Assembly: GCA_028283725.1 (NCBI GenBank) | Contig: JAPWKC010000002.1 | Location: 255,501-319,500, forward strand | Source of the DNA: Neorhizobium sp. | GTDB taxonomy: Bacteria > Pseudomonadota > Alphaproteobacteria > Rhizobiales > Rhizobiaceae | DNA: 64,000 bases | Reading direction: 5' to 3' | Shown: positions 3,253 through 57,926 of the stretch, in pieces | How positions within the stretch are numbered: position 1 is the stretch's first letter | How the letters are laid out: each line of letters starts with the position of its first letter | Notes under the pieces: generated by a model | Seen by the model: the letters and a program-made list of their open reading frames with translations, nothing else | Database searches by the model: none | What the model was told of the DNA's origin: nothing | Program-made: the position numbers and the translations under genes

Positions 3253-3597
3253 ACTGGCGTGTTCGGTTCGAATTGCCGAAGCCGAACCCGCCCCGGTCGC
3301 GACCGCCGCTTGACACGCCCTTGACCAGTGCCGAGGATTTTTGGCACCAGGCTGGGCCTTCGCACTGGAAAAAAGTCATCAGATCGATACGAATCCGAAC
3401 GGTGCGTCAGCGGACACGGTCACCGCAGGTCAATGATATCTCGCTGGTAACGCTGGTTTTGTCGATGTTTGTCGGCTGAACATCCCCGCATTCGGCCCTT
3501 CTCTCTCCCGTCCCCGGGCCACTCGACTCCCAAAGTTGACTCTGATACTCTTATTAAATATGTCAACATTACTGACATTTTCTGGGAGGTCACGATT
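3253..3597 (+). promoter_or_regulatory. 345-bp leader upstream of the glutamate-synthase-like gene
   Basis: No convincing gene. Base composition becomes AT-rich near 3541-3580. Visible elements are an inverted repeat TGTCA-N7-TGACA (3561-3577), an overlapping longer pair GTTGAC (3535-3540) and GTCAAC (3562-3567), and a GGGAGG ribosome site (3584-3589) eight bases before GTG 3598. A GTTCGG/CCGAAC inverted repeat lies just after the GntR stop. The paired elements look like an operator, but no cognate regulator can be named. Confidence 0.45.
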
Positions 3598-6500
3598 GTG
3601 AACACGATGCCGGCAAACACAGGTCTTTACGACCCATCCCTTGACAAGAGCAGTTGCGGCGTCGGCTTCATTACCCGAAAAGACGGCACGCAGTCGCATG
3701 ATGTCCTGACCAAGGGCCATGAGGCTCTCTGTGCCGTACCGCATCGCGGCGGGATATCGGCAGAGGGTGTCGGCGATGGCGCCGGGATCTCTGTCGACCT
3801 GTCGCTCGGCTTCTTCCGCAAACTGACCGGCCAGGCCGACCTTCAGCTGCGCCGCTTCGGCGTCGGCAATTTCTTTCTCCCGGCAAACCCTGCATTTCAC
3901 CCCGAGGCCGTGATTGAGGCCGCCCTGGCCGAACAGGGCTTCCCGATCCTCCTCAAGCGCGACGTGCCGGTGGACAATGATGCAATCCGCCCCGCGGCCG
4001 TTCGCCATCAGCTGACGATCCGCCAGTGGATTTTCGGCTGTCACAGCGCAACCGCATCCGAGGGCGAGTTCGATTTCCGCATACACAAGGCGCTGCTGGC
4101 GATCGAGGCCGATGCCTATACCAGCGCTGACCTTCTGGGTCTCTATCCGATCTCGCTCAGTGCCCGCACGCAGGTGCTGAAGGGCAGGCTGAACTCCAAC
4201 GAGGTCATCCCCTATTTCCGCGATCTGGTGGACACGGACCACGCAATCCACACCATGTATTTCCACACCCGGTTTTCGACCAATACCGACCCCCATCCAT
4301 CGATGGCGCAACCGTTCCGCCAGATGGCGCATAATGGCGAGCTGAATACCGACCGCAAGAACCGCCTGTCGGAAGCGGCGATCGCTGCCGCGAAGAACGC
4401 CTCGATCATCCGCCCGAAGGGCCAATCCGACAGCTGCCGGCTCGATCAGACCCTGCAGTCGCGGGTGCTCGAAGATGGCCTCGACCTCGTGACTGCCGTC
4501 GTCTCGATGATGCCGCCGGCCTGGGAGAATGACGATACGCTGTCGGCCGACGTCGTCGCCATGCTCGAATATTTCTCGCTCTACGAGGAAAAGAACGACG
4601 GCCCGGCAGCACTCATCTTCGGCAATGGCGATGTGATCGGGGCACGGCTCGACCGTCTTGGCCTTCGTCCTTTACGCACGGTCGAGACCGACGACTATCT
4701 CTGCGTCATGTCGGAGGCGGGACAGATCGCCTTTCCGCCGGAAACCGTCTTGAGCCGCGGCCGTATCGAGGCCGGCGGCATGCTGGTCTACGATCACTTG
4801 GAACAGCGCGCCTACGGCACGGTCGAGGCGCTGGAAATGCTTGCCGCCCGCAAACCCTACCGCGATCTTCTGGTCGAGGCGCGGGTGCGCCTGTCCGACC
4901 TGCCGGAGATTCCGGCCGAAGCGCAAGGCTCGCCGCTGCGCTACAATGGCGATCTTGAGCGCCACCAGCGCTATGTCGCCTACTCGCACAATCAGGAGAG
5001 CTTCAAGTTCCTGATGGACCCGATGCTGGCCACCGGCGCGGAAAAGATCTCCGCCATGGGTTATGGCAATGCCATCAACGCGCTGTCCGACCAGGAAGGC
5101 GGCGTCGCCAAATATTTCTCCCAGCGTTTCGCCCAGGTCACCAATCCGCCGCTCGACAGCATTCGCGAGGCCGACGGCATGACGCTCCGGATCGCCCTCG
5201 GCGCCAAGCCGAATATCGGCGCCCGGGCCGCAAGGCAGATCGTCGTCCCTTCGCCGGTTCTGAGCCATCTCGATATGCTCAAGCTGCGCGAGCAGACGGA
5301 AACGCCGGTTCGCCGCTTCGATATGCTCTACACACCTGACCTCGACGATGCCGCCGCCAATATCAGCGCGCTGGAAGACGGTATCGACAGGCTTTGCCAT
5401 GCGATTGCAGGTTTCGCCCGTGACGAAGGCGGCATCGCCATCGTCACCGACCGGCATGTGGCGCGCGATCGGGCGGCGCTGCCGATGATCCTCGTCGTCT
5501 CGGCGATCAACCAGAAGCTTATCGAGGAAGGCGCGCGCCTGCGCGTTTCGCTGGTCATCGAAAGCGGCCAGATCTCCTCGTCGCATCATATCGCGGCAGC
5601 GCTCGGCTTCGGCGCGTCGGCCATTTATCCGCTTGGCGTGCAGTTCCGCGCTGAAGAGAAGTTCGGCGCCGATGCCGACAAGGCTTTCAAGCGCTTCGCC
5701 AAGGCAGCGGAAAAGTCGCTGATGAAGACGATGGGCAAGGTCGGGCTGTGCACCGCAGAAAGCTATGTCGGCGGCGAGTTCTTCGAGCCGAATTTCCTCG
5801 ATACCAGCGATCCGGTGCTCAACCGCTACTTCCCCAACGTCAAGACGCCCGTCGGAGGCGTGGACTTCAAGGTCATCGCCCAGGCCGTTGCCGACTGGCA
5901 CGCCAAGGCGCTGACGGTGAAAGGCGAGGACGACATTCCGCTGCTCGGCCTCTTCAAGGAGCGCGCCGAAGGCGCCGGCCATTCTTTCGGCACCACGGCC
6001 GTGCGCGGCTTCGTCGATATGACCGAGGAAAAGCCGAGCTTTGCGGAGCCGGACGGAGAGGAGGATCCGTTCCTGCGCCTGCTGACGCTCAATCGCCTGG
6101 GCGATGCATTCGGCATCGATGATGCGGCCTATGCGAATAACAGCTACGATCGCCTTTCTGCCGAAGCCATCGACCGTTTCACCATCACCCCCGGCTACCG
6201 ATCGTTTGCGCGGATGATGACGGAAGAGCGCGCCCGCAGGCCGGCCGCGCTCCGCGATGTCCTCGCCTTCCCGGCGGATGTCACTTATGCCAACTCCCCG
6301 GATGATTTCCGCAAGGAGATGAAGCGCTTTTCCCGCAAGGGCAATAACAGTTTTCTCGTGCGCGGCCTGACATGCGAAGCCACGTCCGACGATATGTTCC
6401 GGCTGACGCTGACGGGGCCGCAGGGCGGCAATCTTGCGCGGCTCGCGGCGCTTGGCCAGTCATTGGTCGCACGCTTCGGTGCAGACGTTCTCGGCCATTG

Positions 6501-9084
6501 GCTGGAGGGCGGCGCGCTCGCAGTCCAGGCGGCCGGCCAGGCGCTCGACTATCTGCGCCTTCTCGGTACCGCGCCTGCAGGCCTCTCGCTCGATGACGTT
6601 CAGCCGGCAAGCGAAATTACGCCGCTGCTCGCATCGGGCGCCATGAGCCACGGCGCGCTGGTTTCCAATGCCCATGAGGCAGTGGCACACGGCACCAACA
6701 TGGTCGGCGGCATGTCGAACTCGGGCGAAGGCGGCGAGCATATCTCCCGCTACGGCACGATCCGCGCCTCGCGCATCAAGCAGTTCGCGTCTGGCCGTTT
6801 CGGCATCTGGGCCGGCTATCTGGCAGATCCGATGCTGGAAGAGCTGGAGATCAAGATCGGCCAGGGCGCCAAGCCCGGCGAAGGCGGCCAGCTTCCTGCC
6901 GCGAAAGTGACGGTCGAGATCGCAGCCGCCCGCGGCGGCACGCCGGGAGTCGAGCTGGTCTCGCCGCCCCCGCATCACGATACCTATTCGATCGAGGATC
7001 TGGCGCAGCTGATCCATGACTGCAAGGCGGCGCGCGTCCGCGTCGTCGTCAAGCTCGTCTCGTCGGAAGGCATTGGCACGATCGCGGTCGGTGTCGCCAA
7101 GGCCGGCGCCGATGTCATCAATGTCGCCGGCAATACCGGTGGCACCGGTGCGGCCGCCGTCACCAGCCTCAAATATACCGGCCGCGCAGCCGAGATCGGC
7201 ATTGCCGAAGTCCATCAGGCGCTCTGCGCCAACGGCTTGCGGCAGAAGGTGACGCTGCGCTGCTCGGGCGCACATCAGACGGCCAGCGACGTGGTGAAGT
7301 CTGCGCTTCTCGGCGGTGACAGCTTTGAATTCGGCACGACGGCGCTGATGATGCTGAAATGCGTCATGGCGAAGAACTGCAACATCAAGTGCCCGGCGGG
7401 CCTCACCACCAATGCCGAAGTCTTCGACGGCGATCCGCGGGCGCTGGCGCAGTATCTGCTCAACATCGCCCACGAGACCCGCGAGATCCTGGCCTCGCTC
7501 GGCTTCAGGTCGCTGCGTGAGGCACGCGGCAGGAGCGATCTCCTGCATCTCCTCGATCACCCCTCCAGCGTCGGCCAGCTCGATCTGCGCGCCATGCTGC
7601 AGGTCGTCGATGAGGTGAGGATCGCAGACCCCGTTTATATGGAGAAGGATTACGCCCTCGACGACGCCTTTATCGACATGGTGCGTTCGGCCCTGATCGA
7701 CGGCGGCCAGCCGACGGTCGAGCTTGGCGGCAACCGCCATCTCAACAATTGCAACAAGAGCGTCGGCGGCCAGCTTGCGGTCGATATCGAGCGGATGCTG
7801 AACTATGAGCTCGATGCCGGAAAGGCACGTCACCTGCCCGCCGTGAGGCAGGACGGGCGCGGCCGCCGTTTCCTTGATGCAGGTTCGGTGAAGATCGCGA
7901 CCTCCGGTTCAGCCGGCCAGTCCTATGGCGCATTCTGCAATGACGGCATGATGCTCGCCCACACCGGCACCTGCAATGACGGCGTCGGCAAGAGCGCCAA
8001 TGGCGGCACGATCACGGTGCGTGCTCCCGGCGGTGGCTCGGCAGAGGCCGGCGGCAATGTGCTGATCGGCAATTTCGCCCTGTTCGGCGCGACCGGCGGA
8101 CGTCTGTTCGTCGAGGGTCAGGCCGGCGACCGGTTCGCGGTGCGCAATTCCGGCTCCACGGCCGTCGTCGAAGGCGTGGGCGATTTCTGCTGCGAATACA
8201 TGACGAACGGCGCGGTGCTCAATCTCGGCGCCTTCGGCAAGGGTGTCGGCAACGGCATGAGCGGCGGGTTCTTCTATCAGTACGATCCCTACGGCGATCT
8301 GCCGAAGAAGGTGAGCCACGATTCCATCCTGATCGGTTCGATCGGCAATCAGGATGATCCGCACGCCGCTTTCCATGCCGACGCGATCCGCATGATGCTG
8401 GCATGGCATGTGGAAGCGACAGGCTCAGAAAAAGCCCGCTGGCTTCTCGATAATTTCGACAGCGAAAAGTCGAACTTCGTCTACGGCCTGCCGCGGGCGC
8501 TGCTGCTTTATCAGGATACGGACGCGATCCTGAAGGCCAAGAGCCGCAAGGACCTGATCGAGGAACTCGCCACGGCGCTGGCCGGCCATCAGGTGCGCAA
8601 GTTCAAGCTCGCCTATCGCGACCGAAAGCCGATCCTGAATGGCAAGGCTCCTGGCCATGGCGAGACGGATACGGACCAGATGTTCGCGCTGCTCAACAAC
8701 TACACGGTGCTCTCCATGGCGCAATCGCTTGCCATGGCGCGGGTTCCGAACGCGCTCGGCCCATCGGAGCCGGCGGTGGAAAAGGCCGTACGCAATCTGA
8801 TCCTGACGGAGGATTTCGCGCTGATGCAGAAACTCTCCCGCTATGCGCGAGAAGCGGTTGCCGATTACGACGACGAGGGGCTTGCCATCCTTGTCTCGGA
8901 AAAGCGTCTTTCCGATTATCGCCAGGCGCTTGCCGGCCGCAACACGCTGTCGATCGATTGCCCCGGCACCTATGGCTGGATCATCCGGCAGACGGACAGC
9001 AACCGGGGGCGGATCGGCCGCATCCCGAGCTTCGAAGAACTGTTTGCGCGCAAGGCCGTCGGCGGCCTTGCGACTGCAAGATAA
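3598..9084 (+). CDS. Glutamate synthase large-subunit-like protein (GATase II / FMN / Fe-S / GXGXG) with C-terminal extension
   Basis: Reading from GTG 3598 (GGGAGG eight bases upstream) gives 1828 residues, longer than the roughly 1500-1570 of bacterial GltB. Order: short propeptide; class II glutamine amidotransferase with candidate nucleophile Cys20 (SSCGVGFI); central domain (AQVTNPPLDSIRE); FMN-binding synthase domain (KPGEGGQLPAAKV, SPPPHHDTYSIEDLAQLI); a three-Cys cluster Cys1255/1261/1265; GXGXG domain (GSAGQSYGAFCNDG); then about 190 residues past the usual GltB end near residue 1635. The Fe-S motif spacing is Cx5Cx3C instead of the usual Cx5Cx4C, and the family's SGHDGGTGA reads AGNTGGTGA. 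Expected chemistry is ammonia transfer from glutamine to a 2-oxo acid on a reduced flavin, but these changes leave the acceptor uncertain. A diflavin reductase follows at 25 bp in place of GltD. Confidence 0.85.
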   Translation: MNTMPANTGLYDPSLDKSSCGVGFITRKDGTQSHDVLTKGHEALCAVPHRGGISAEGVGDGAGISVDLSLGFFRKLTGQADLQLRRFGVGNFFLPANPAFHPEAVIEAALAEQGFPILLKRDVPVDNDAIRPAAVRHQLTIRQWIFGCHSATASEGEFDFRIHKALLAIEADAYTSADLLGLYPISLSARTQVLKGRLNSNEVIPYFRDLVDTDHAIHTMYFHTRFSTNTDPHPSMAQPFRQMAHNGELNTDRKNRLSEAAIAAAKNASIIRPKGQSDSCRLDQTLQSRVLEDGLDLVTAVVSMMPPAWENDDTLSADVVAMLEYFSLYEEKNDGPAALIFGNGDVIGARLDRLGLRPLRTVETDDYLCVMSEAGQIAFPPETVLSRGRIEAGGMLVYDHLEQRAYGTVEALEMLAARKPYRDLLVEARVRLSDLPEIPAEAQGSPLRYNGDLERHQRYVAYSHNQESFKFLMDPMLATGAEKISAMGYGNAINALSDQEGGVAKYFSQRFAQVTNPPLDSIREADGMTLRIALGAKPNIGARAARQIVVPSPVLSHLDMLKLREQTETPVRRFDMLYTPDLDDAAANISALEDGIDRLCHAIAGFARDEGGIAIVTDRHVARDRAALPMILVVSAINQKLIEEGARLRVSLVIESGQISSSHHIAAALGFGASAIYPLGVQFRAEEKFGADADKAFKRFAKAAEKSLMKTMGKVGLCTAESYVGGEFFEPNFLDTSDPVLNRYFPNVKTPVGGVDFKVIAQAVADWHAKALTVKGEDDIPLLGLFKERAEGAGHSFGTTAVRGFVDMTEEKPSFAEPDGEEDPFLRLLTLNRLGDAFGIDDAAYANNSYDRLSAEAIDRFTITPGYRSFARMMTEERARRPAALRDVLAFPADVTYANSPDDFRKEMKRFSRKGNNSFLVRGLTCEATSDDMFRLTLTGPQGGNLARLAALGQSLVARFGADVLGHWLEGGALAVQAAGQALDYLRLLGTAPAGLSLDDVQPASEITPLLASGAMSHGALVSNAHEAVAHGTNMVGGMSNSGEGGEHISRYGTIRASRIKQFASGRFGIWAGYLADPMLEELEIKIGQGAKPGEGGQLPAAKVTVEIAAARGGTPGVELVSPPPHHDTYSIEDLAQLIHDCKAARVRVVVKLVSSEGIGTIAVGVAKAGADVINVAGNTGGTGAAAVTSLKYTGRAAEIGIAEVHQALCANGLRQKVTLRCSGAHQTASDVVKSALLGGDSFEFGTTALMMLKCVMAKNCNIKCPAGLTTNAEVFDGDPRALAQYLLNIAHETREILASLGFRSLREARGRSDLLHLLDHPSSVGQLDLRAMLQVVDEVRIADPVYMEKDYALDDAFIDMVRSALIDGGQPTVELGGNRHLNNCNKSVGGQLAVDIERMLNYELDAGKARHLPAVRQDGRGRRFLDAGSVKIATSGSAGQSYGAFCNDGMMLAHTGTCNDGVGKSANGGTITVRAPGGGSAEAGGNVLIGNFALFGATGGRLFVEGQAGDRFAVRNSGSTAVVEGVGDFCCEYMTNGAVLNLGAFGKGVGNGMSGGFFYQYDPYGDLPKKVSHDSILIGSIGNQDDPHAAFHADAIRMMLAWHVEATGSEKARWLLDNFDSEKSNFVYGLPRALLLYQDTDAILKAKSRKDLIEELATALAGHQVRKFKLAYRDRKPILNGKAPGHGETDTDQMFALLNNYTVLSMAQSLAMARVPNALGPSEPAVEKAVRNLILTEDFALMQKLSRYAREAVADYDDEGLAILVSEKRLSDYRQALAGRNTLSIDCPGTYGWIIRQTDSNRGRIGRIPSFEELFARKAVGGLATAR

Positions 9085-9109
9085 GCGATACGATCGTGAG
9101 ACAGCGATA

Positions 9110-10858
9110 ATGATGATACCGCATATTCCTGAGGACGCTCCCTTCAACAGCGACCAGCGCGCCTGGCTCGCCGGCTTCATGGCCGGTCTCAACTCGCGCC
9201 TGATCGCCGGTGACCACGTCGCGACCACACCTGCGGCCGGTGCGGCGCAGCCGATCCATATTCTCTACGGTACCCAGACCGGCAATGCCGAACTGGTGGC
9301 GATGGATGCGGCTGAGGCGGCGAAGGCGCTTGGCATGGCTCCACAGGTGCGCGGCCTCGACGATATCGACATGGCGGCTCTCGCCGAGATGCGCCATCTG
9401 GTGATCGTCACCTCCACCTATGGCGAGGGCGAGATGCCCGATAACGCCCAGCTTTTCTGGGAGGCGCTTTCTGCCGATACGGCGCCGCGTCTCGAAAGCC
9501 TGAAATTCGCCGTGCTGGCGCTCGGCGATACCGGCTATGATGGCTTTTGCCAGGCGGGCAAGCTGATCGATACGCGGCTGGAACAGCTTGGAGCAACTCG
9601 CATGGCCGCCCGGCTCGACTGCGACGTCGATTACGAGGATGCCGCTGCACACTGGCTCGGCGACACCCTGCCGCTTGCCGCAGACGCGCCGGCGATCGCG
9701 ACGGCAACCGACAGTCCACCAAAATCCGCCGCGTCGCGCAAGACCTCCGGCTGGAGCCGCAAGAACCCTTACGCGTCGACGCTTGCCGTCAATCGCCGCC
9801 TGTCCGGCGCCGCATCGACGAAAGAAATCCGCCATTTCGAATTCGATCTCGGCGATAGTGGCCTCGCCTATGAGGCGGGCGATGCGCTCGGTGTCATGCC
9901 GGTCAACGATCCTGTTCTCGTCGATCTCATCATCCAGGCGCTGGGTGCATCGGCCGAAACGGAGATCAATGGCTCACCGCTTGCCGCCCTTCTCTCGACC
10001 CGATACGAGATCTCGACACCTTCGCGGGACCTGATTGCCGAAGTCGAGCGCCGTGCGGCTCACGAGGAACTGAGCCATGTCCTTCGCAATGGAGACAGGG
10101 AAGCCCTCGACGGCTTCCTGTGGAGCAGGGACGCTCTCGATCTCCTCTCGCTCCTGCCGCAAAGGGCCTTGAACCCGACCGAGTTTGTCGGCCTGTTGAA
10201 GCCGTTGCAGCACCGCGCCTATTCGATTTCCTCGAGCCCGAAGGAGGCGAACGGTCATGTGCATCTGACCGTTGCCAGCGTCCGCTATCATGCGGGTGGG
10301 CGCAACCGCGGCGGCGTCTGCTCGACCTATATGGCAGACCGCGTGGCAGAAGGTATGAGCGCCGGCATTTTCGTCTCGCAGAACAAGGCCTTTCGCGTGC
10401 CGGGCAATGACGATGCGCCCATGATCATGGTCGGTCCCGGCACAGGCATCGCACCCTTTCGCGCTTTTCTGCAGGAGCGACGCGCACGGGGCGCCACAGG
10501 CCGCAACTGGCTGTTTTTCGGCGACCAGCGCCGCGAGACGGATTTCATCTATGAGCAAGAGCTATCGGTGATGAGCCGTGACGGCCTGCTCACCCGTCTC
10601 GATCTCGCCTTCTCACGCGATCAGCAGGCCAAGATCTATGTTCAGACCCGGATGAAGGAAAACGGCAAGGCATTGTTTTCCTGGCTTGAGGACGGCGCAT
10701 CCTTTTATGTCTGCGGCGATGCAAGCCGCATGGCGCGCGATGTCGACATGGCGCTCAGCGACATCATCGCAGACCATGGCGGGTTCACCCCGGAAAAAGC
10801 TGCGGATTATCTCGCCAATCTGAAGCGTGAAAAGCGCTATCTCCGCGACGTCTACTGA
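9110..10858 (+). CDS. NADPH-dependent diflavin reductase, CysJ-like (sulfite reductase flavoprotein family)
   Basis: A 582-residue protein. It has an N-terminal flavodoxin domain (ILYGTQTGNAELVA, about residues 51-64), an FAD-binding domain with RAYSISS at 369-375, and an NADPH-binding domain starting at GPGTGIAPFRAF (442-453). The C-terminus KRYLRDVY closely resembles that of CysJ. Such proteins pass electrons from NADPH through FAD to FMN and on to a partner haem or Fe-S enzyme. No sulfite reductase haemoprotein is nearby; the gene starts 25 bp after the glutamate-synthase-like gene and ends at a terminator hairpin, so the natural inference is that it reduces that protein. ATG 9110 and ATG 9113 are both possible starts. 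Confidence 0.87.
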   Translation: MMIPHIPEDAPFNSDQRAWLAGFMAGLNSRLIAGDHVATTPAAGAAQPIHILYGTQTGNAELVAMDAAEAAKALGMAPQVRGLDDIDMAALAEMRHLVIVTSTYGEGEMPDNAQLFWEALSADTAPRLESLKFAVLALGDTGYDGFCQAGKLIDTRLEQLGATRMAARLDCDVDYEDAAAHWLGDTLPLAADAPAIATATDSPPKSAASRKTSGWSRKNPYASTLAVNRRLSGAASTKEIRHFEFDLGDSGLAYEAGDALGVMPVNDPVLVDLIIQALGASAETEINGSPLAALLSTRYEISTPSRDLIAEVERRAAHEELSHVLRNGDREALDGFLWSRDALDLLSLLPQRALNPTEFVGLLKPLQHRAYSISSSPKEANGHVHLTVASVRYHAGGRNRGGVCSTYMADRVAEGMSAGIFVSQNKAFRVPGNDDAPMIMVGPGTGIAPFRAFLQERRARGATGRNWLFFGDQRRETDFIYEQELSVMSRDGLLTRLDLAFSRDQQAKIYVQTRMKENGKALFSWLEDGASFYVCGDASRMARDVDMALSDIIADHGGFTPEKAADYLANLKREKRYLRDVY

Positions 10859-10865
10859 CGCCATC

Positions 10866-10900
10866 GCAAGCCGGCCGGCAATGGCCGGCTTGCTGATTTT
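10866..10900 (+). terminator. Intrinsic terminator after the diflavin reductase gene
   Basis: Perfect 11-bp stem (GCAAGCCGGCC at 10866-10876, complement at 10883-10893), 6-nt loop, followed by TGATTTT. It lies seven bases after the stop and marks the end of the glutamate-synthase-like/diflavin operon. The 169-bp gap to the next gene holds nothing else clear. Confidence 0.75.
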
Positions 10901-11027: not shown

Positions 11028-12755
11028 ATGACGATATTCGCACAGAGTTTCACCCGCAGCCTCGACCGGCTGATCGACGAGGCAGTGCCCGGACGGCCAT
11101 TCGAAGCCTGGACCTTCGATGACCTTGAGAGCAGACGGGCGGCGGAAACAGTGTTGCGGGCAAAGGGCGTCCATGCCCGTATCCGCAGCGCCTACAAGCC
11201 GCTTGTCTTCGCCTTCATCGAGGAAATCGATCTTGCTGGCGTCGATGCCATCACCATCGGTTTTCCCAGGCACGCCGATGCACCCGCCAGTCGCTTCCGC
11301 CTGGAAGCCTATCCGCTTGCAGCCCTTGTCGGCGATATCGACATCCGGTTTACGGAGCGCGAGGACAAGACGCTCTTCTACGACGTGGCGTTGACGCGGC
11401 GCGGAGCCGTCGAAACCATCAGGGTCTTTGCCCCCAATCGCCTGCATGTCGACAGCATCGGCGAGACCAATCTGTCGCCGACCGGTTGGATCCGGTATGG
11501 AGATGAGGAGACAGGCACGCGGTTTGAGACCGAATATGAGGCGCTTTTCGAAGCGGCCATGAGCGCCGTGACGGGCCACGATTGGGGCGATCGCGAACCC
11601 TATTTCGAGGAACTGAACATCCGCGTCGATTATCCCGCTGAAGATATCCGACTGCCCTTTGGAGACGAGGCGATCAGCCTGCGCGAAGCGCTGCATGAGG
11701 ACCTCTATTTCTCGCTTTTGGAATTTTTCCAGAAGAAGTCTGGCCGGCCGCTTGGCGATCGTGGGTTGAAGCCCGGCCAGATCGTGCCGGAAATTGTCGA
11801 AAGCGCCGGTTCGGTCTCGCTTCGTATCGAGACGAGACCGCTGACGACGGGCTTTACGGATAGCGGCGGGCAGGCCGTCGAGACCGCAGGCGCACCGCTC
11901 GCCGCCGACCAGATCTCGACGCTTCTGGCCGGGATCGGCGGCCAGGCATTCGATGCTGCGTCCCGCTCCGGGCGGCACGTCGAAGCCCGCTATGTCAGCG
12001 GCACGGATGCGGCGGTGATGATCAGCGCGGGGCAGCATGCCAACGAGACCACCGGCATCGTCGGTGCCCTGAGGGCAGCGCGCCTGTTGAGGACGCGCGC
12101 CAATGCCCATTTCACCATCTCGCCGCTGGAAAATCCGGATGGTTACGCACTGCATCAGAGGCTGCGTGTGGACAATCCGCGTCACATGCATCATGCGGCC
12201 CGCTACACCGCGCTTGGCGACGATCTCGAATACCGGACGCAGGAGAATGGCGGTGGCGGCCTGTATGAGAAGGAGATCCGCCTGCAGGCACAGGCACTGA
12301 GCGGCGCCGATCTGCATATAAACCTGCACGGCTACCCGTCGCATGAGTGGACACGACCGCTATCCGGCTATGTACCGCGCAATTTTGCCATGTGGACACT
12401 GCCGAAAGGCTTTTTCCTGATCATGCGCCATCGGACAGGCTGGGAGGAGAAGGCCATGACCTTGCTCGACCATGTCACCCGTCATCTTTCGGCAATCCCC
12501 GGCCTGATCGCCACGAACAACAGGCAGATCGGGCTTTACGAGATCCATGCGGGAAAGACCGGCTTCGAGATGATCAACGGCTTCCCCTGCCTTTCATCCG
12601 CCGATGACCGGCATGCCGTTCCGATGACCCTCATCGCCGAGTATCCGGACGAAACCATCTATGGCGGCGGCTTCATCACCGGGCATACTGCACAAATGGA
12701 AACGGTTCTCGCCGCCTATGACGCCTGGCAGATCGTGAATGGCCCGACGAGCTGA
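11028..12755 (+). CDS. M14 family zinc carboxypeptidase-like protein
   Basis: A 575-residue protein with no signal peptide, so probably cytoplasmic. The first 300 or so residues form an unrecognised domain. The C-terminal part has the M14 zinc pattern: His337-x-x-Glu340 in GQHANETTG, a candidate third ligand His434 in HINLHGYPSHEW, and a late acidic segment AEYPDETIYGGG that may hold the catalytic Glu. M14 enzymes remove C-terminal residues or cleave gamma-glutamyl or amide bonds in peptides and cell-wall fragments. The next gene is of the gamma-glutamyltransferase family and the preceding operon is glutamate-synthase-like, so a glutamyl-peptide substrate is plausible but unproven. Confidence 0.8.
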   Translation: MTIFAQSFTRSLDRLIDEAVPGRPFEAWTFDDLESRRAAETVLRAKGVHARIRSAYKPLVFAFIEEIDLAGVDAITIGFPRHADAPASRFRLEAYPLAALVGDIDIRFTEREDKTLFYDVALTRRGAVETIRVFAPNRLHVDSIGETNLSPTGWIRYGDEETGTRFETEYEALFEAAMSAVTGHDWGDREPYFEELNIRVDYPAEDIRLPFGDEAISLREALHEDLYFSLLEFFQKKSGRPLGDRGLKPGQIVPEIVESAGSVSLRIETRPLTTGFTDSGGQAVETAGAPLAADQISTLLAGIGGQAFDAASRSGRHVEARYVSGTDAAVMISAGQHANETTGIVGALRAARLLRTRANAHFTISPLENPDGYALHQRLRVDNPRHMHHAARYTALGDDLEYRTQENGGGGLYEKEIRLQAQALSGADLHINLHGYPSHEWTRPLSGYVPRNFAMWTLPKGFFLIMRHRTGWEEKAMTLLDHVTRHLSAIPGLIATNNRQIGLYEIHAGKTGFEMINGFPCLSSADDRHAVPMTLIAEYPDETIYGGGFITGHTAQMETVLAAYDAWQIVNGPTS

Positions 12756-54236: not shown

Positions 54237-55454
54237 ATGGTGACCAAAGGCGCAATTGCCGGTGAAGGCCCAAAAAGCCGCACGGCATCGATAGACGAAA
54301 CCATCGGCCACGACGCCAGCATCCTCAGCGCTCAGCTGCAGGTGTTGTTCGAACGGCTGTTTTCTCCTCATGCCAAAAAATCGCTGCGCCGTTTTACCAG
54401 CAGCGAAGTCGCCAAGCTGCTCGGCGTCACCGACAGTTACGTGCGCCACCTTGCGACGCAAGAGGACGCTGTGACGTCGGAAAAGACGGCAAACGGCAGG
54501 CGCACGTTCTCGCTGGAGGAGATCAACGGGATCCGGCAGCATCTGGGCCGGACCAAACCGGCCTACCTGCCCGGTCGCCGCGAGGGCGATCACCTGCAGG
54601 TCATTGCCGTCACCAATTTCAAAGGCGGTTCGGGCAAGACGACCTCGGCCATTCACATGGCGCAATATCTCGCCCTTCGTGGATACCGCGTTCTGGCACT
54701 CGATCTCGACCCGCAGGCGTCGATGTCGGCCATGCTCGGATTCCAGCCGGAATTCGACGTCGGCGACAACCAGACCCTTTATGGCGCGATCCGCTATGAC
54801 GACGAAGCCCGTGATGTTCGCGAAATCGTCCGCAAGACCTATTTTCCGGGCCTCGATCTCATTCCCGGCAATCTCGAACTCCACGAATTCGAGCATGATA
54901 CACCGCGGGCACTGGCAGATAGCGAGCGAACCGACAATGGTTTGTTCTTCATGCGCGTCGGCAATGCCATCGCGCAATTGGAGGCCGATTACGACGTTGT
55001 CGTCATCGATTGCCCGCCGACGCTCGGGTTCCTGACGCTCTCGGCACTCTGCGCGGCGACCTCGGTGTTGATCACCGTCCATCCGCAGATGCTCGACATC
55101 GCATCGATGAACCAGTTTCTTGCAATGACTTCGGACCTCCTCTCCGTCGTGAAGGAAGCCGGCGGCAATCTGGATTACGACTGGATGCGCTATCTGGTGA
55201 CGCGTCACGAAGCCAATGACGGGCCGCAGGCGCAGATCGTCGCCTTCCTGCGCAGCCTGTTCGGCGAGCGTGTTTTGACCTCGATGATGGTGAAATCGAC
55301 AGCGGTGTCCGACGCCGGTCTTTCCAAGCAGACCATTTACGAAGCCGGCCGGGAAACCATGCATCGCCAGACGTATGACCGTGCGGTGGAATCCATGGAT
55401 GCCGTCAATTCGGAGCTGGAGCAACTCATTCGCAGCGTATGGAGCAAGGCATGA
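54237..55454 (+). CDS. repA: Plasmid partitioning protein RepA (ParA family ATPase)
   Basis: A 405-residue protein. It has an N-terminal helix-turn-helix (TSSEVAKLLGVTDSYVRHLA, about 54-73), deviant Walker A KGGSGKTT at 129-136, and ParA motifs VLALDLDPQASMSAM and VVIDCPPTLGFLTLSALCA. It moves replicon copies during division with RepB and parS, and represses the operon. First gene of repABC; its stop overlaps the repB start by four bases. The ribosome site before ATG 54237 is weak. Confidence 0.96.
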   Translation: MVTKGAIAGEGPKSRTASIDETIGHDASILSAQLQVLFERLFSPHAKKSLRRFTSSEVAKLLGVTDSYVRHLATQEDAVTSEKTANGRRTFSLEEINGIRQHLGRTKPAYLPGRREGDHLQVIAVTNFKGGSGKTTSAIHMAQYLALRGYRVLALDLDPQASMSAMLGFQPEFDVGDNQTLYGAIRYDDEARDVREIVRKTYFPGLDLIPGNLELHEFEHDTPRALADSERTDNGLFFMRVGNAIAQLEADYDVVVIDCPPTLGFLTLSALCAATSVLITVHPQMLDIASMNQFLAMTSDLLSVVKEAGGNLDYDWMRYLVTRHEANDGPQAQIVAFLRSLFGERVLTSMMVKSTAVSDAGLSKQTIYEAGRETMHRQTYDRAVESMDAVNSELEQLIRSVWSKA

Positions 55455-56437
55455 AGGGTCGTGACATATTGAAAAGCATGGTCGGCACGCCCGAGCCTGC
55501 AAAGTCGGAGGGCGCCACCGCTCCCCTGCCCCATCGCCCGGCCGGTGCCGTGCGCGCCATGAACCTTTCGCTCGGTCGCCTCAATGATGAAGCCGCTGCC
55601 GCCAAGGCGTTGCGCGAAACCATCGCCTCCGGCGACAAGGTCATCGAGCTTGATACGGCAATGGTGGAACTGTCCTTCATTCAGGACCGTATTCCCGTCG
55701 ATCGCGACGCCGCGTTCGAAGAACTCAAGAATTCCATCGCGGAGAACGGTCAGCAGATCCCGATCCTCGTCCGTCCGCATCCTGAAAAGCCCAAGGCCTA
55801 TCAGGTCGCTTACGGCCACCGCCGTCTGCGTGCCATGTCCGAACTCGGCAAGCCGGTTCGCGCCATCGTGCGTAATCTGTCCGATGAAGAGCTGATCCTC
55901 GCACAGGCCCAGGAAAACGGGCCTCGCGTCGATCTGAGCTTTATCGAACGGGCGTTGTTTGCCCGCCGTATGGACGAACATGGCCTTGATCGCGAAACGA
56001 TCTCCAGGGCGCTATCTGTCGACAAGCCGGAAACCTCGCGGCTTCTTCAGGTCGCAGAGGGCGTTCCGGCTGACATTATTCTCGCAATCGGTCCCGCACC
56101 CAAGATCGGTCGTCCCCGCTGGCTCGCCTTTGCCGAACGCCTGCGCGATAGAGCGGTCCTTACCAAGGCGAATGCGGTCGTTACCTTGCCGGAGTTTCTG
56201 GCCTTCGACAGCAACAAGCGCTTCGAACATGCCTGGAAGACGCTCAATGCCGTCGAGAAGATTGCCGCACCGACGGAATCGATTGCGACCTCGAAGGGCA
56301 GGGAAGTCGGCTCGCTGGTGCGCGGACGTCGCGGAGCCAAGCTGACGATCACGTCAAAGAATTTTGCGGAGTTTCTGGCCGATGAGATGCCCACGCTTGT
56401 GGCGCGCTTCGAAGCCTCTGGCCGCGAGACCTCATAA
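55451..56437 (+). CDS. repB: Plasmid partitioning protein RepB (ParB family)
   Basis: A 328-residue ParB-like protein: N-terminal ParB/Srx-type domain (IDTAMVEL-like start, NSIAENGQQIPILVRPHP, YQVAYGHRRLRAMSELGKPV), helix-turn-helix (LDRETISRALSVDKPETSRLLQVAEGVP) and a C-terminal dimerisation region. It binds parS. The start at 55451 has GGAG upstream and overlaps the repA stop (ATGA). A parS-like palindrome begins nine bases after its stop. Confidence 0.95.
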   Translation: MKGRDILKSMVGTPEPAKSEGATAPLPHRPAGAVRAMNLSLGRLNDEAAAAKALRETIASGDKVIELDTAMVELSFIQDRIPVDRDAAFEELKNSIAENGQQIPILVRPHPEKPKAYQVAYGHRRLRAMSELGKPVRAIVRNLSDEELILAQAQENGPRVDLSFIERALFARRMDEHGLDRETISRALSVDKPETSRLLQVAEGVPADIILAIGPAPKIGRPRWLAFAERLRDRAVLTKANAVVTLPEFLAFDSNKRFEHAWKTLNAVEKIAAPTESIATSKGREVGSLVRGRRGAKLTITSKNFAEFLADEMPTLVARFEASGRETS

Positions 56438-56446
56438 CCATTCCAT

Positions 56447-56464
56447 GATTGTCAGCTGACAATC
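56447..56464. other. parS-like centromere palindrome, copy 2
   Basis: GATTGTCAGCTGACAATC is a perfect 18-bp palindrome whose inner 16 bp equal copy 1 upstream of repA. It sits in the repB-repC gap, directly after the repB stop, a known location for parS in some repABC replicons. Confidence 0.85.
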
Positions 56465-56493
56465 GATGACAACAGGAGACTAGACCGCAAAAG

Positions 56494-56545
56494 AAAAAGG
56501 CCCCCAAGCGACCGAAGTCGTGGAAGCCTCTCTCAGATCTTAAGC
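56494..56545 (-). ncRNA. Counter-transcribed antisense RNA (incA/RepE-type ctRNA) in the repB-repC gap
   Basis: On the minus strand a candidate -35 TTGACT (plus-strand 56575-56580) and -10 GATTCT (56552-56557) are separated by 17 bp. About 50 nt downstream lies an intrinsic terminator: a hairpin between 56498 and 56529, with outer arms AGGC/GCCT and an inner CGAC-TTCG-GTCG stem, followed by a T-run. Every well-studied repABC system makes such a small RNA against the repC leader to limit RepC synthesis and set incompatibility. The exact 5' end is estimated. Confidence 0.72.
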
Positions 56546-56642
56546 AAATCGAGAATCGCATTTCCACGAATCACAGTCAAGCGTCTTTGGCACCGTTTTG
56601 GTGAGCAGATTTCTTTTGCCTAGGCAAAAGGACGAACGACCT

Positions 56643-57926
56643 ATGGAAAGTGGATATGTAACGACGCCTTTTGGGCGGCGGCCAATGTCGCTTGCCTTAT
56701 TGGCGAGGCAACAGCAGGCCAGTCAGATCACGCCCGGTACGGCACGCAACAAATGGAAGCTTTTCCGCTCCATTTGCGAAGGCCGTCATGCTCTCGGCGT
56801 GAACGACCGTGCCTTGACCGTGCTGGATGCGCTCTTGAGCTTCTATCCGCATGACGAACTCACGGACGAACACAAGCTGGTGGTCTTTCCCTCCAACGCA
56901 CAATTGTCGATCCGTGCGCGCGGCATGGCGCCTGCAACGCTCAGGCGGCATCTGGCTGTTCTCGTGGAGACCGGCCTCATCCTGCGCAAGGATAGTCCGA
57001 ACGGCAAACGCTATGCCCGGCGTGGCAAGCAGGGCGATATCGATGATGCTTTTGGTTTCAGTCTCGCACCGCTGCTTTGCCGCGCCGCCGAGATCGAAGC
57101 CCATGCCGACCAAGCGATCGCCGAACGGACAGAACTTCGCCTGCTTCGCGAGCGCGTCACGCTTTCCCGCCGGCACCTCGCCAAACTGATCGCGGCGTCG
57201 ATGAACGAAAACATTCCGGGAAATTGGGAGGTCCTGTCCGATCAGTTTCATGCCGCTGTCGGGCGTCTTCCGCGCGTCGCTTCGGCCGACATTCTACGCG
57301 CCATCCATTCGGACCTTCAAGACATCAGCGTGAACGTCATCAACCTTCTGGAAAACCACGTAAATTCGCTGAATGTAAGCGCCAATGCATCTCAGCATGA
57401 GCGGCACATACAGGATTCAAACATCAAACTTCCTACTGAATCTGAAAACCAATTCGAAGACACAGCCCAACATCAGCCAACAAGCAACGCAAGCCTAACC
57501 CAGAACCGCACGCTCACCTCAACCACATCGTCTCTGGTCCACGATCACGACCAAAAGCGTCCGCTGCAGCAAGATCAGAACCGGATCACCCTATCTCTCG
57601 TTCTAAACGCCTGCCCCCAAGTATCGGATTACGGCCCCCAGGGACGTGTGACGTGCTGGAAGGATCTTGAAACGGCGACGCAGGTCATAGCGACAATGCT
57701 CGGCATCAATGCCAATGCCCTGGGCGAGGCAAAGCATGTGCTCGGCGTTCATCACACCGCCATTGCGATCGCCTGCATTCTGGAGCGTCACGACAGTATC
57801 CGCTCACCTGGCGCTTACCTGACAAACCTGACACGCAGAGCCATCCAAGCACCCTTCTCCATCGAGCCGATGCTGATGGCACTCATCAGAGCCAAGGCTT
57901 TTGATGGGATGGATAAGGCGCATTGA
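56643..57926 (+). CDS. repC: Replication initiation protein RepC
   Basis: A 427-residue initiator, normal for the family. Landmarks are TTPFGRRPMSLALLARQQQA, KWKLFRSICEGRHALGVNDRALTVLDALLSFYP, FPSNAQLSIRARGMAPATLRRHLAVLVETGLILRKDSPNGKRYARR (N-terminal DNA-binding region, quoted in parts) and a C-terminal domain ending in SPGAYLTNLTRRA. The middle, about residues 240-310, is hydrophilic and low in complexity. ATG 56643 has AAAGGA upstream; the frame is open from 56598. RepC starts replication at an origin usually inside its own gene, and its level is set by the ctRNA. Confidence 0.95.
   Translation: MESGYVTTPFGRRPMSLALLARQQQASQITPGTARNKWKLFRSICEGRHALGVNDRALTVLDALLSFYPHDELTDEHKLVVFPSNAQLSIRARGMAPATLRRHLAVLVETGLILRKDSPNGKRYARRGKQGDIDDAFGFSLAPLLCRAAEIEAHADQAIAERTELRLLRERVTLSRRHLAKLIAASMNENIPGNWEVLSDQFHAAVGRLPRVASADILRAIHSDLQDISVNVINLLENHVNSLNVSANASQHERHIQDSNIKLPTESENQFEDTAQHQPTSNASLTQNRTLTSTTSSLVHDHDQKRPLQQDQNRITLSLVLNACPQVSDYGPQGRVTCWKDLETATQVIATMLGINANALGEAKHVLGVHHTAIAIACILERHDSIRSPGAYLTNLTRRAIQAPFSIEPMLMALIRAKAFDGMDKAH
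57352..57565. other. AT-rich candidate replication origin (oriV) within repC
   Basis: This stretch of repC is clearly AT-richer than its surroundings and encodes a poorly conserved Ser/Asn/Gln-rich linker. In studied repABC replicons the origin lies in an AT-rich part of repC, so this is the likely oriV. No iterons are visible. Confidence 0.6.

Follow-up and report, generated by a model that had tools for sequence, protein, structure and literature searches.

A glutamate-synthase-type large subunit paired with a diflavin reductase: a probable further class of bacterial glutamate synthase

Results

Layout of the gltB2-reductase unit

Glutamate synthase (GOGAT) is a main point of entry for ammonia into metabolism. 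The electron donors usually named for it are NAD(P)H, via GltD-type modules, and ferredoxin. In a 64,000-nt stretch of the genome of a Neorhizobium sp. (the window, meaning the whole stretch of DNA that was analysed), we examined a two-gene unit consisting of gltB2, which encodes a glutamate-synthase-type large subunit, and a gene for a CysJ-like diflavin reductase. The pair very probably represents a two-component glutamate synthase class separate from both GltBD and the ferredoxin-dependent GOGAT and fed by its own diflavin reductase. A first-pass annotation of the sequence had described a class II amidotransferase/flavin mononucleotide (FMN)/GXGXG protein, a reductase 25 nt further on and then a terminator, an arrangement borne out by the coordinates, the Pfam matches and the hairpin:

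3532..3590, + strand: upstream element with TTGAC / GTCA half-sites, conserved and possibly a promoter/operator, together with a ribosome-binding site; from an alignment of eight upstream regions
3598..9084, + strand: gltB2, glutamate-synthase-type large subunit, 1828 residues, GTG start at 3598, TAA stop at 9082-9084
9110..10858, + strand: CysJ-like diflavin reductase gene, 581-582 residues, with FMN flavodoxin, flavin adenine dinucleotide (FAD) and NADPH domains; the conserved partner of gltB2
10866..10893, + strand: terminator-like hairpin with a 12-pair stem ahead of TGATTTT

The reductase starts at an in-frame ATG at either 9110 or 9113 and stops at 10856-10858, the gap to the gltB2 stop being 25 nt for the first of these starts. 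Terminator-like sites number 10 in the window, versus 5.5 expected by shuffling, and the hairpin at 10866-10893 has the longest stem among them. The upstream element, at about -80 to -20 of gltB2, is common to eight regions that are otherwise divergent further upstream; 12 of 163 loci have a strict form of its pattern, always 5' of gltB2 and several times in one and the same genome, and the window's own element departs from this strict form. The unit may thus carry its own promoter. No convincing NtrC/sigma-54 site was found in the upstream regions of gltB2, and no RNA element near the pair scored above the Rfam gathering thresholds.

Domains of GltB2 and differences from canonical GltB

The following regions were assigned in GltB2, two of which are specific to its family:

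3655..4866, + strand: class II glutamine amidotransferase domain, residues 20-423; Pfam PF00310 (GATase_2), E 1e-83
4969..5787, + strand: central domain, residues 458-730; Pfam PF04898 (Glu_syn_central), E 6e-74
6010..6552, + strand: family-specific insert region of about 145 residues, at about residues 805-985, between the central and FMN domains
6583..7506, + strand: FMN / 2-oxoglutarate domain, residues 996-1303; Pfam PF01645 (Glu_synthase), E 4e-106
7360..7392, + strand: presumed 3Fe-4S loop, C1255-x5-C1261-x3-C1265
7861..8355, + strand: GXGXG beta-helix domain, residues 1422-1586; Pfam PF01493, E 3e-48
8503..9081, + strand: family-specific C-terminal extension of about 190 residues, at about residues 1636-1828, not present in 10 canonical GltB

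The presumed nucleophile of the amidotransferase domain, Cys20 (codon 3655-3657), is kept together with the HRGG, RFSTNT, HNGE and QSDS motifs in all 19 aligned GltB2 rows, and CG[VIF]GF is present in 84 of 85 rows of the family. In the FMN / 2-oxoglutarate domain, QGAKPGEGGQLP is kept in 19/19 aligned rows and SPPPHHD is likewise unchanged, while consistent changes set the site apart from the canonical one: RGGTP versus canonical R[HYG]S[TV]P and, near the FMN site, mostly AGNTGGTG versus [AS]G[YFH][DE]GGT and mostly CSGAHQT versus DGGLKT-like. The cysteine trio of the canonical Fe-S site, from which a cluster is presumed, is retained in every one of the 85 GltB2 rows as C-x5-C-x3-C within CVMAKNCN[IVL]KCPAG, compared with C-x5-C-x4-C in all 10 canonical rows.

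Neither the insert nor the C-terminal extension has a Pfam match. The insert finds no counterpart in 10 canonical GltB aligned with 19 GltB2 rows. In an AlphaFold2 fragment model, its second half (about residues 890-995) is predicted to form three strands, a helix, two strands and a helix; block means of the predicted local distance difference test (pLDDT) score are 73-93 between residues 890 and about 1009, and mostly 36-84 ahead of residue 890. Residues 1585-1828 are modelled as all-helical (pLDDT 86), and no Protein Data Bank (PDB) fold match to the extension was obtained at E<=0.001. The protein scores 1034.8 bits against the NCBIfam GltB model NF008730, just below its cut-off of 1047. GltB2 is a clade separate from canonical GltB: in a quick tree of 24 GltB2 and 11 canonical rows, the two sets are split by a branch with 100% support in the Shimodaira-Hasegawa-like approximate likelihood ratio test, although the branches are long and long-branch caution applies.

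The partner reductase and sulfite reductase

The partner has the Pfam domains Flavodoxin_1, FAD_binding_1 and NAD_binding_1, and its family keeps the motifs RxYSISSS (84/85 rows), SRDQxxK[IV]YVQ (84/85) and a C-terminal RDVY (85/85), which we take, from what is known of CysJ and cytochrome P450 reductases, to indicate FAD binding and a preference for NADPH. Some features would fit an ordinary CysJ serving sulfite reductase: the best PDB matches of the partner are sulfite reductase flavoproteins, related records annotate it as sulfite reductase subunit alpha, and it passes the NCBIfam model of that name, NF004859 (497.5 bits, cut-off 432). Against this, it falls below the cut-off of the cysJ model TIGR01931 (613.6 versus 668.15 bits), and no homologue of the sulfite reductase haemoprotein CysI was found in the window or in any of the 95 GltB2 loci described below. 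In a tree, 28 partner rows cluster with one outsider at 97/93 support, to the exclusion of three CysJ whose annotated neighbour is CysI.

The distribution of the two kinds of protein points the same way. All 36 genomes examined from the genus have a sulfite/nitrite-reductase-family (SIR-family) protein. The pair is missing from 28 of them, and 26 of these 28 gave no CysJ-like match at E<=1e-20, the other two having distant ones at 32-34%. In the Neorhizobium genome itself, the search at E<=1e-20 gave one SIR-family protein, whose frame shares 24% identity with Salmonella CysI; a second CysJ-like protein was not found at E<=0.001. In all four Enterobacterales genomes examined, a separate protein besides the partner scores above the cysJ cut-off (899-911 bits, versus 607-613 for the partner). 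Since most genomes of the genus without the pair have a SIR-family protein and no CysJ-like match, and the four Enterobacterales genomes have a separate protein above the cysJ cut-off, the reductase is most likely not there for sulfite reductase, which we rejected as its partner. A role as ordinary CysJ is thus very improbable, and the possibility raised in the first-pass annotation that the reductase serves a sulfite or nitrite reductase elsewhere is not what the distribution indicates for sulfite reductase. Because the partner passes NF004859, proteins of this kind are likely misnamed when they are automatically called "sulfite reductase subunit alpha".

One further open reading frame came to light in the same tree. 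On plasmid p2 of Paracoccus sp. TOH (L150:4702-7614), a frame of 970 residues joins an N-terminal part that by eye is P450-like to a reductase of the partner group; it adjoins glutamine-synthetase-like genes, and its only annotation is that of a sulfite reductase flavoprotein with its start at 5911.

Conservation and distribution of the pair

Of 232 relatives found, the best 80 genome loci were examined. In 79 of these, the reductase lies on the same strand, 20-214 nt past the end of the GltB2 match, and in the sole miss (L083) a contig end cuts inside GltB2; five of five fetched plasmid loci also have it directly downstream on the same strand, giving 84 of 85 fetched loci (GltB2 at 63-92% identity) with an adjacent downstream reductase. 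Judged by position, it is likewise present in all nine plasmid records with GltB2 above 60% identity. A search with a C-terminal marker added six further loci, all with the reductase (51-74% identity to the window's GltB2; one, L149, is from the same genome as L057), and a search in Enterobacteriaceae added four more, again all with it (68-70%; the species may overlap ones already counted). The loci bearing the pair were drawn from Pseudomonadota, Actinomycetota and one Verrucomicrobiales metagenome-assembled genome (Verrucomicrobiota). The adjacency that the first-pass annotation had proposed to look for in other genomes is therefore conserved, in 84/85 plus 10/10 loci, by which chance adjacency is rejected. 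A larger conserved operon is rejected as well, only the reductase recurring as a neighbour; judged by eye, the remaining neighbour clusters are generic ABC-type proteins, frames that shadow the reductase, Erwiniaceae chromosomal context and a transporter-like cluster (4 loci). GltD occurs in one of the 95 GltB2 loci (G498), in the order gltB-gltD-gltB2-reductase, with a fragment of canonical gltB next to the gltD. Distances among GltB2 proteins and among reductases correlate (r=0.918, 45 loci, none of 2000 permutations as high), some correlation being expected for any adjacent genes.

These data bear on whether GltB2 might be a ferredoxin- or flavodoxin-dependent GOGAT, with the adjacent reductase serving another carrier or enzyme. 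Ferredoxin GOGATs work without GltD, and two of them (1llw, 1ofe) are among the relatives of GltB2 by sequence and fold. That a specific reductase nevertheless stands beside GltB2 in nearly every locus and co-diverges with it, and that no third gene recurs beyond local context, makes this explanation quite unlikely.

The spread of the pair is patchy. GltB2 is present in 8 of the 36 genus genomes (the window's own counted), all of which have canonical GltB and the reductase too, and the C-terminal marker is positive in 3 of 385 sampled genomes of the class and 6 of 398 of the phylum (the own genome being in both). In a phage collection, 27 records matched, all below 60% identity. Among E. coli genomes, DNA of the GltB2 FMN domain matched in 5366 of 5426 at 60-80% identity, with gltB among the matches listed, and reductase DNA matched in 349, with cysJ among the matches listed.

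Genomes in which GltB2 probably stands in for GltBD

Canonical GltB was searched for with the E. coli GltB query at E<=1e-40 in 31 GltB2-bearing genome entries, which correspond to 29 distinct genomes, since two occur twice as judged from matching contig positions. GltB2 was the sole match in eight of these, and canonical GltB was also present in the other 21. The eight are G163, G369, G622, G763, G597 (=G800, Pantoea ananatis), G778 (=G801), G799 (P. agglomerans; the record that bears its pair has "complete chromosome" in its title) and G802 (Erwinia). Among 149 genomes drawn from the P. ananatis family, 93 matched the E. coli GltB search at E<=1e-100; GltB2 occurs in six of those, without canonical GltB in G597, G778, G877, G926 and G932 and with both in G900, and G877, G926, G932 and G900 were confirmed as carrying the gltB2-reductase pair. 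GltB2-only genomes hence total 11, eight at E<=1e-40 and three (G877, G926, G932) at E<=1e-100. The record of G778 and G801 (locus L067), titled Enterobacter ludwigii EnVs2, is probably mislabelled: its gltB2 locus is of the Pantoea type, and it belongs to the P. ananatis genus group.

A GltD-like protein at E<=1e-20 is missing from 9 of the 11 GltB2-only genomes. Among nine controls with canonical GltB, GltD was found in eight, with none at E<=1e-20 in G810. It might be supposed that GltB2 uses the GltD of the canonical enzyme and that the reductase is incidental, since eight of the nine genomes examined that hold both systems do have GltD; with no GltD-like match in most of the genomes that have GltB2 alone, we regard such borrowing as hardly credible. 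The first-pass annotation had favoured a diflavin partner as a dedicated electron source instead of GltD. This is the best reading, and it gains strength from those genomes where no GOGAT large subunit other than GltB2 was found.

The position of the pair in Erwiniaceae is also informative. All 19 Erwiniaceae-type loci of the 80, together with those of G877, G926 and G932, have arcB about 0.9-1.1 kb from gltB2 in divergent orientation, so that the pair adjoins arcB in all 22 Erwiniaceae-type loci that contain no canonical gltB. In the E. coli order, arcB-yhcC is next to gltB, i.e., at the gltBD site; neither yhcC nor gltD gave a match in the 22 arcB loci. G900, which keeps canonical gltB, has the pair away from arcB within the fetched stretch. 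It looks as if GltBD was replaced in place by the pair in Erwiniaceae.

Pantoea ananatis and the reaction of the pair

According to a 2025 paper (PMC12364357), the E. coli GOGAT lacks a close homologue in P. ananatis AJ13355, whose putative gltB (PAJ_RS19710) shares 64% identity with the GOGAT of Agrobacterium tumefaciens. The paper also reports that glutamate dehydrogenase activity was close to the limit of detection when the minimal medium contained abundant glucose and ammonium, and that a gltB knockout, for which Hara 2012 is cited, is a glutamate auxotroph. A term search of its text found no mention of CysJ, sulfite or a small subunit. In P. ananatis LMG 2665, GltB2 is the only GltB-like protein found, and it shares 68.3% identity with an A. 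tumefaciens GltB2; the knocked-out gene is therefore most likely gltB2. Since no GltD-like protein was found in P. ananatis (G597) at E<=1e-20, its donor is probably not GltD, and the neighbouring reductase is the obvious candidate.

The replacement of GltBD and the auxotrophy reported for the gltB knockout argue for ordinary glutamate synthesis, rather than new chemistry, as the probable reaction of the pair. The first-pass annotation had spoken of an undescribed redox aminotransfer system: the conserved unit stands, with a different electron path as its best reading, whereas the suggestion of new chemistry is probably too strong. Where GltBD is also present, the pair might still aminate a different 2-oxo acid or make a different amino compound, as the conserved changes at the FMN/2-oxoglutarate site and the side-by-side retention of both systems in the Neorhizobium genome and others could suggest. 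The same kinds of change are found, however, in the GltB2 row of Pantoea, where GltB2 is the sole GOGAT large subunit found and the knockout is reported to need glutamate, and QGAKPGEGGQLP and SPPPHHD are unchanged, so that we judge a different substrate unlikely.

Host replicon and neighbouring genes

The Neorhizobium assembly comprises 4.08 Mb in 4 contigs, with a stated completeness of 78%, and the contig of the pair measures 623 kb. The pair lies on a repABC-type replicon, since repA-, repB- and repC-like genes (window 54237-57926) and Rfam matches to the S-element and ctRNA are on its contig. The first-pass annotation had noted that GltD and a sulfite reductase haemoprotein are absent nearby. 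This holds within the window, where tblastn found no GltD or CysI homologue (best E 0.24) and likewise no homologue of the genome's own SIR-family protein, but elsewhere the genome has both that protein and, on another contig, a canonical gltB-gltD, to which the pair is therefore an addition. The canonical gltB (L006:3406-8332, contig 2) shifts reading frame near L006:6506-6549, through either an assembly error or a real break; if the break is real, the pair could be the strain's only working GOGAT.

On the 3' side of the pair, window positions 11028-12755 encode a 575-residue protein with sub-threshold resemblance to M14 / AstE-AspA zinc enzymes, which adjoins a gamma-glutamyltranspeptidase-family gene.

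Discussion

Proposed mechanism and its weighing

By homology and from general knowledge of GOGATs, glutamine would be hydrolysed to glutamate and ammonia at the amidotransferase domain of GltB2 and the ammonia channelled to the FMN site, where, as in canonical GltB, it would react with 2-oxoglutarate to give 2-iminoglutarate and then glutamate. Electrons would pass, again by homology, from NADPH to FAD to FMN within the reductase and from there presumably one at a time to GltB2, either via the 3Fe-4S cluster and then FMN or straight to FMN. We infer that the partner reduces GltB2 directly and that 2-oxoglutarate is also the substrate in genomes that have GltBD as well, the Neorhizobium genome included. 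The insert and the helical C-terminal extension might be docking surfaces for the reductase, a guess made because both are confined to the GltB2 family.

Several points weigh against this account. Two of the 11 GltB2-only genomes do have GltD-like proteins (G802, 58% and 35%; G369, 37%), and, as control G810 gave no GltD match, the GltD search can miss divergent GltD. Many GltB2 genomes, including that of the window, also hold GltBD, so that the function of GltB2 could differ there. The partner-reductase clade has one member away from GltB2, the P450-reductase fusion in Paracoccus. The AlphaFold2 model of GltB2 residues 780-1828 is of moderate quality (mean pLDDT 68), although its best Foldseek matches are solved GOGATs. 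The 68.3% identity of the LMG 2665 GltB2 to the A. tumefaciens GltB2 is not exactly the 64% printed for PAJ_RS19710, which is presumably GltB2 and whose knockout phenotype the 2025 paper takes from Hara 2012. In the literature searched, we found no biochemistry on the pair and no paper describing it by title or abstract, an earlier mention, of the partner in Hara 2012 or otherwise in subscription literature, being possible.

Taken together, the pair is a genuine two-gene unit, conserved and functionally coherent, and most likely a further bacterial glutamate synthase class with a swapped electron donor. We consider it likely, more specifically, that this further class is fed with single electrons by a flavoprotein of the P450/sulfite-reductase type, has spread horizontally, and serves as the sole GOGAT in Pantoea, Erwinia and several unrelated lineages after displacing GltBD, at the same site in Erwiniaceae. 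The novelty probably lies in the electron path and not in the reaction. If this is true, GOGAT, a multi-centre iron-sulfur flavoenzyme, can swap its reductase; the partner becomes a candidate for the missing electron donor of P. ananatis, a bacterium of biotechnological use; and its annotation as sulfite reductase subunit alpha needs correction.

Comparison with known systems

GltB2 resembles the large subunit of GltBD (EC 1.4.1.13; Azospirillum 1ea0/6s6s, 7mfm) in having all four large-subunit domains, the N-terminal cysteine, the FMN/2-oxoglutarate motifs and a presumed Fe-S cysteine trio, and is 33-45% identical to canonical GltB in segments matched in whole genomes. It differs in having one residue fewer between the second and third cysteines and in its additional insert and C-terminal domain, and it is paired with a diflavin reductase instead of with GltD, a subunit with FAD and two 4Fe-4S clusters. 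With the ferredoxin-dependent GOGAT (Synechocystis 1ofe/1llw), it shares a large subunit that occurs without GltD, and it differs in the reductase gene that lies beside it. The partner, in turn, has the flavodoxin-FAD-NADPH layout of CysJ, an alignable N-terminal segment and the RxYS, SRDQxxKxYVQ and C-terminal RDVY motifs, and is 40-42% identical to the three CysJ annotated beside CysI; unlike CysJ, it belongs to a separate tree group, scores below the cysJ cut-off and has no CysI found nearby. Among P450-reductase fusions, the P450-like fusion of Paracoccus is the one user of a partner-type reductase in the tree other than GltB2, and in such a fusion, in contrast to the GltB2 pair, the acceptor would be the haem of the same chain.

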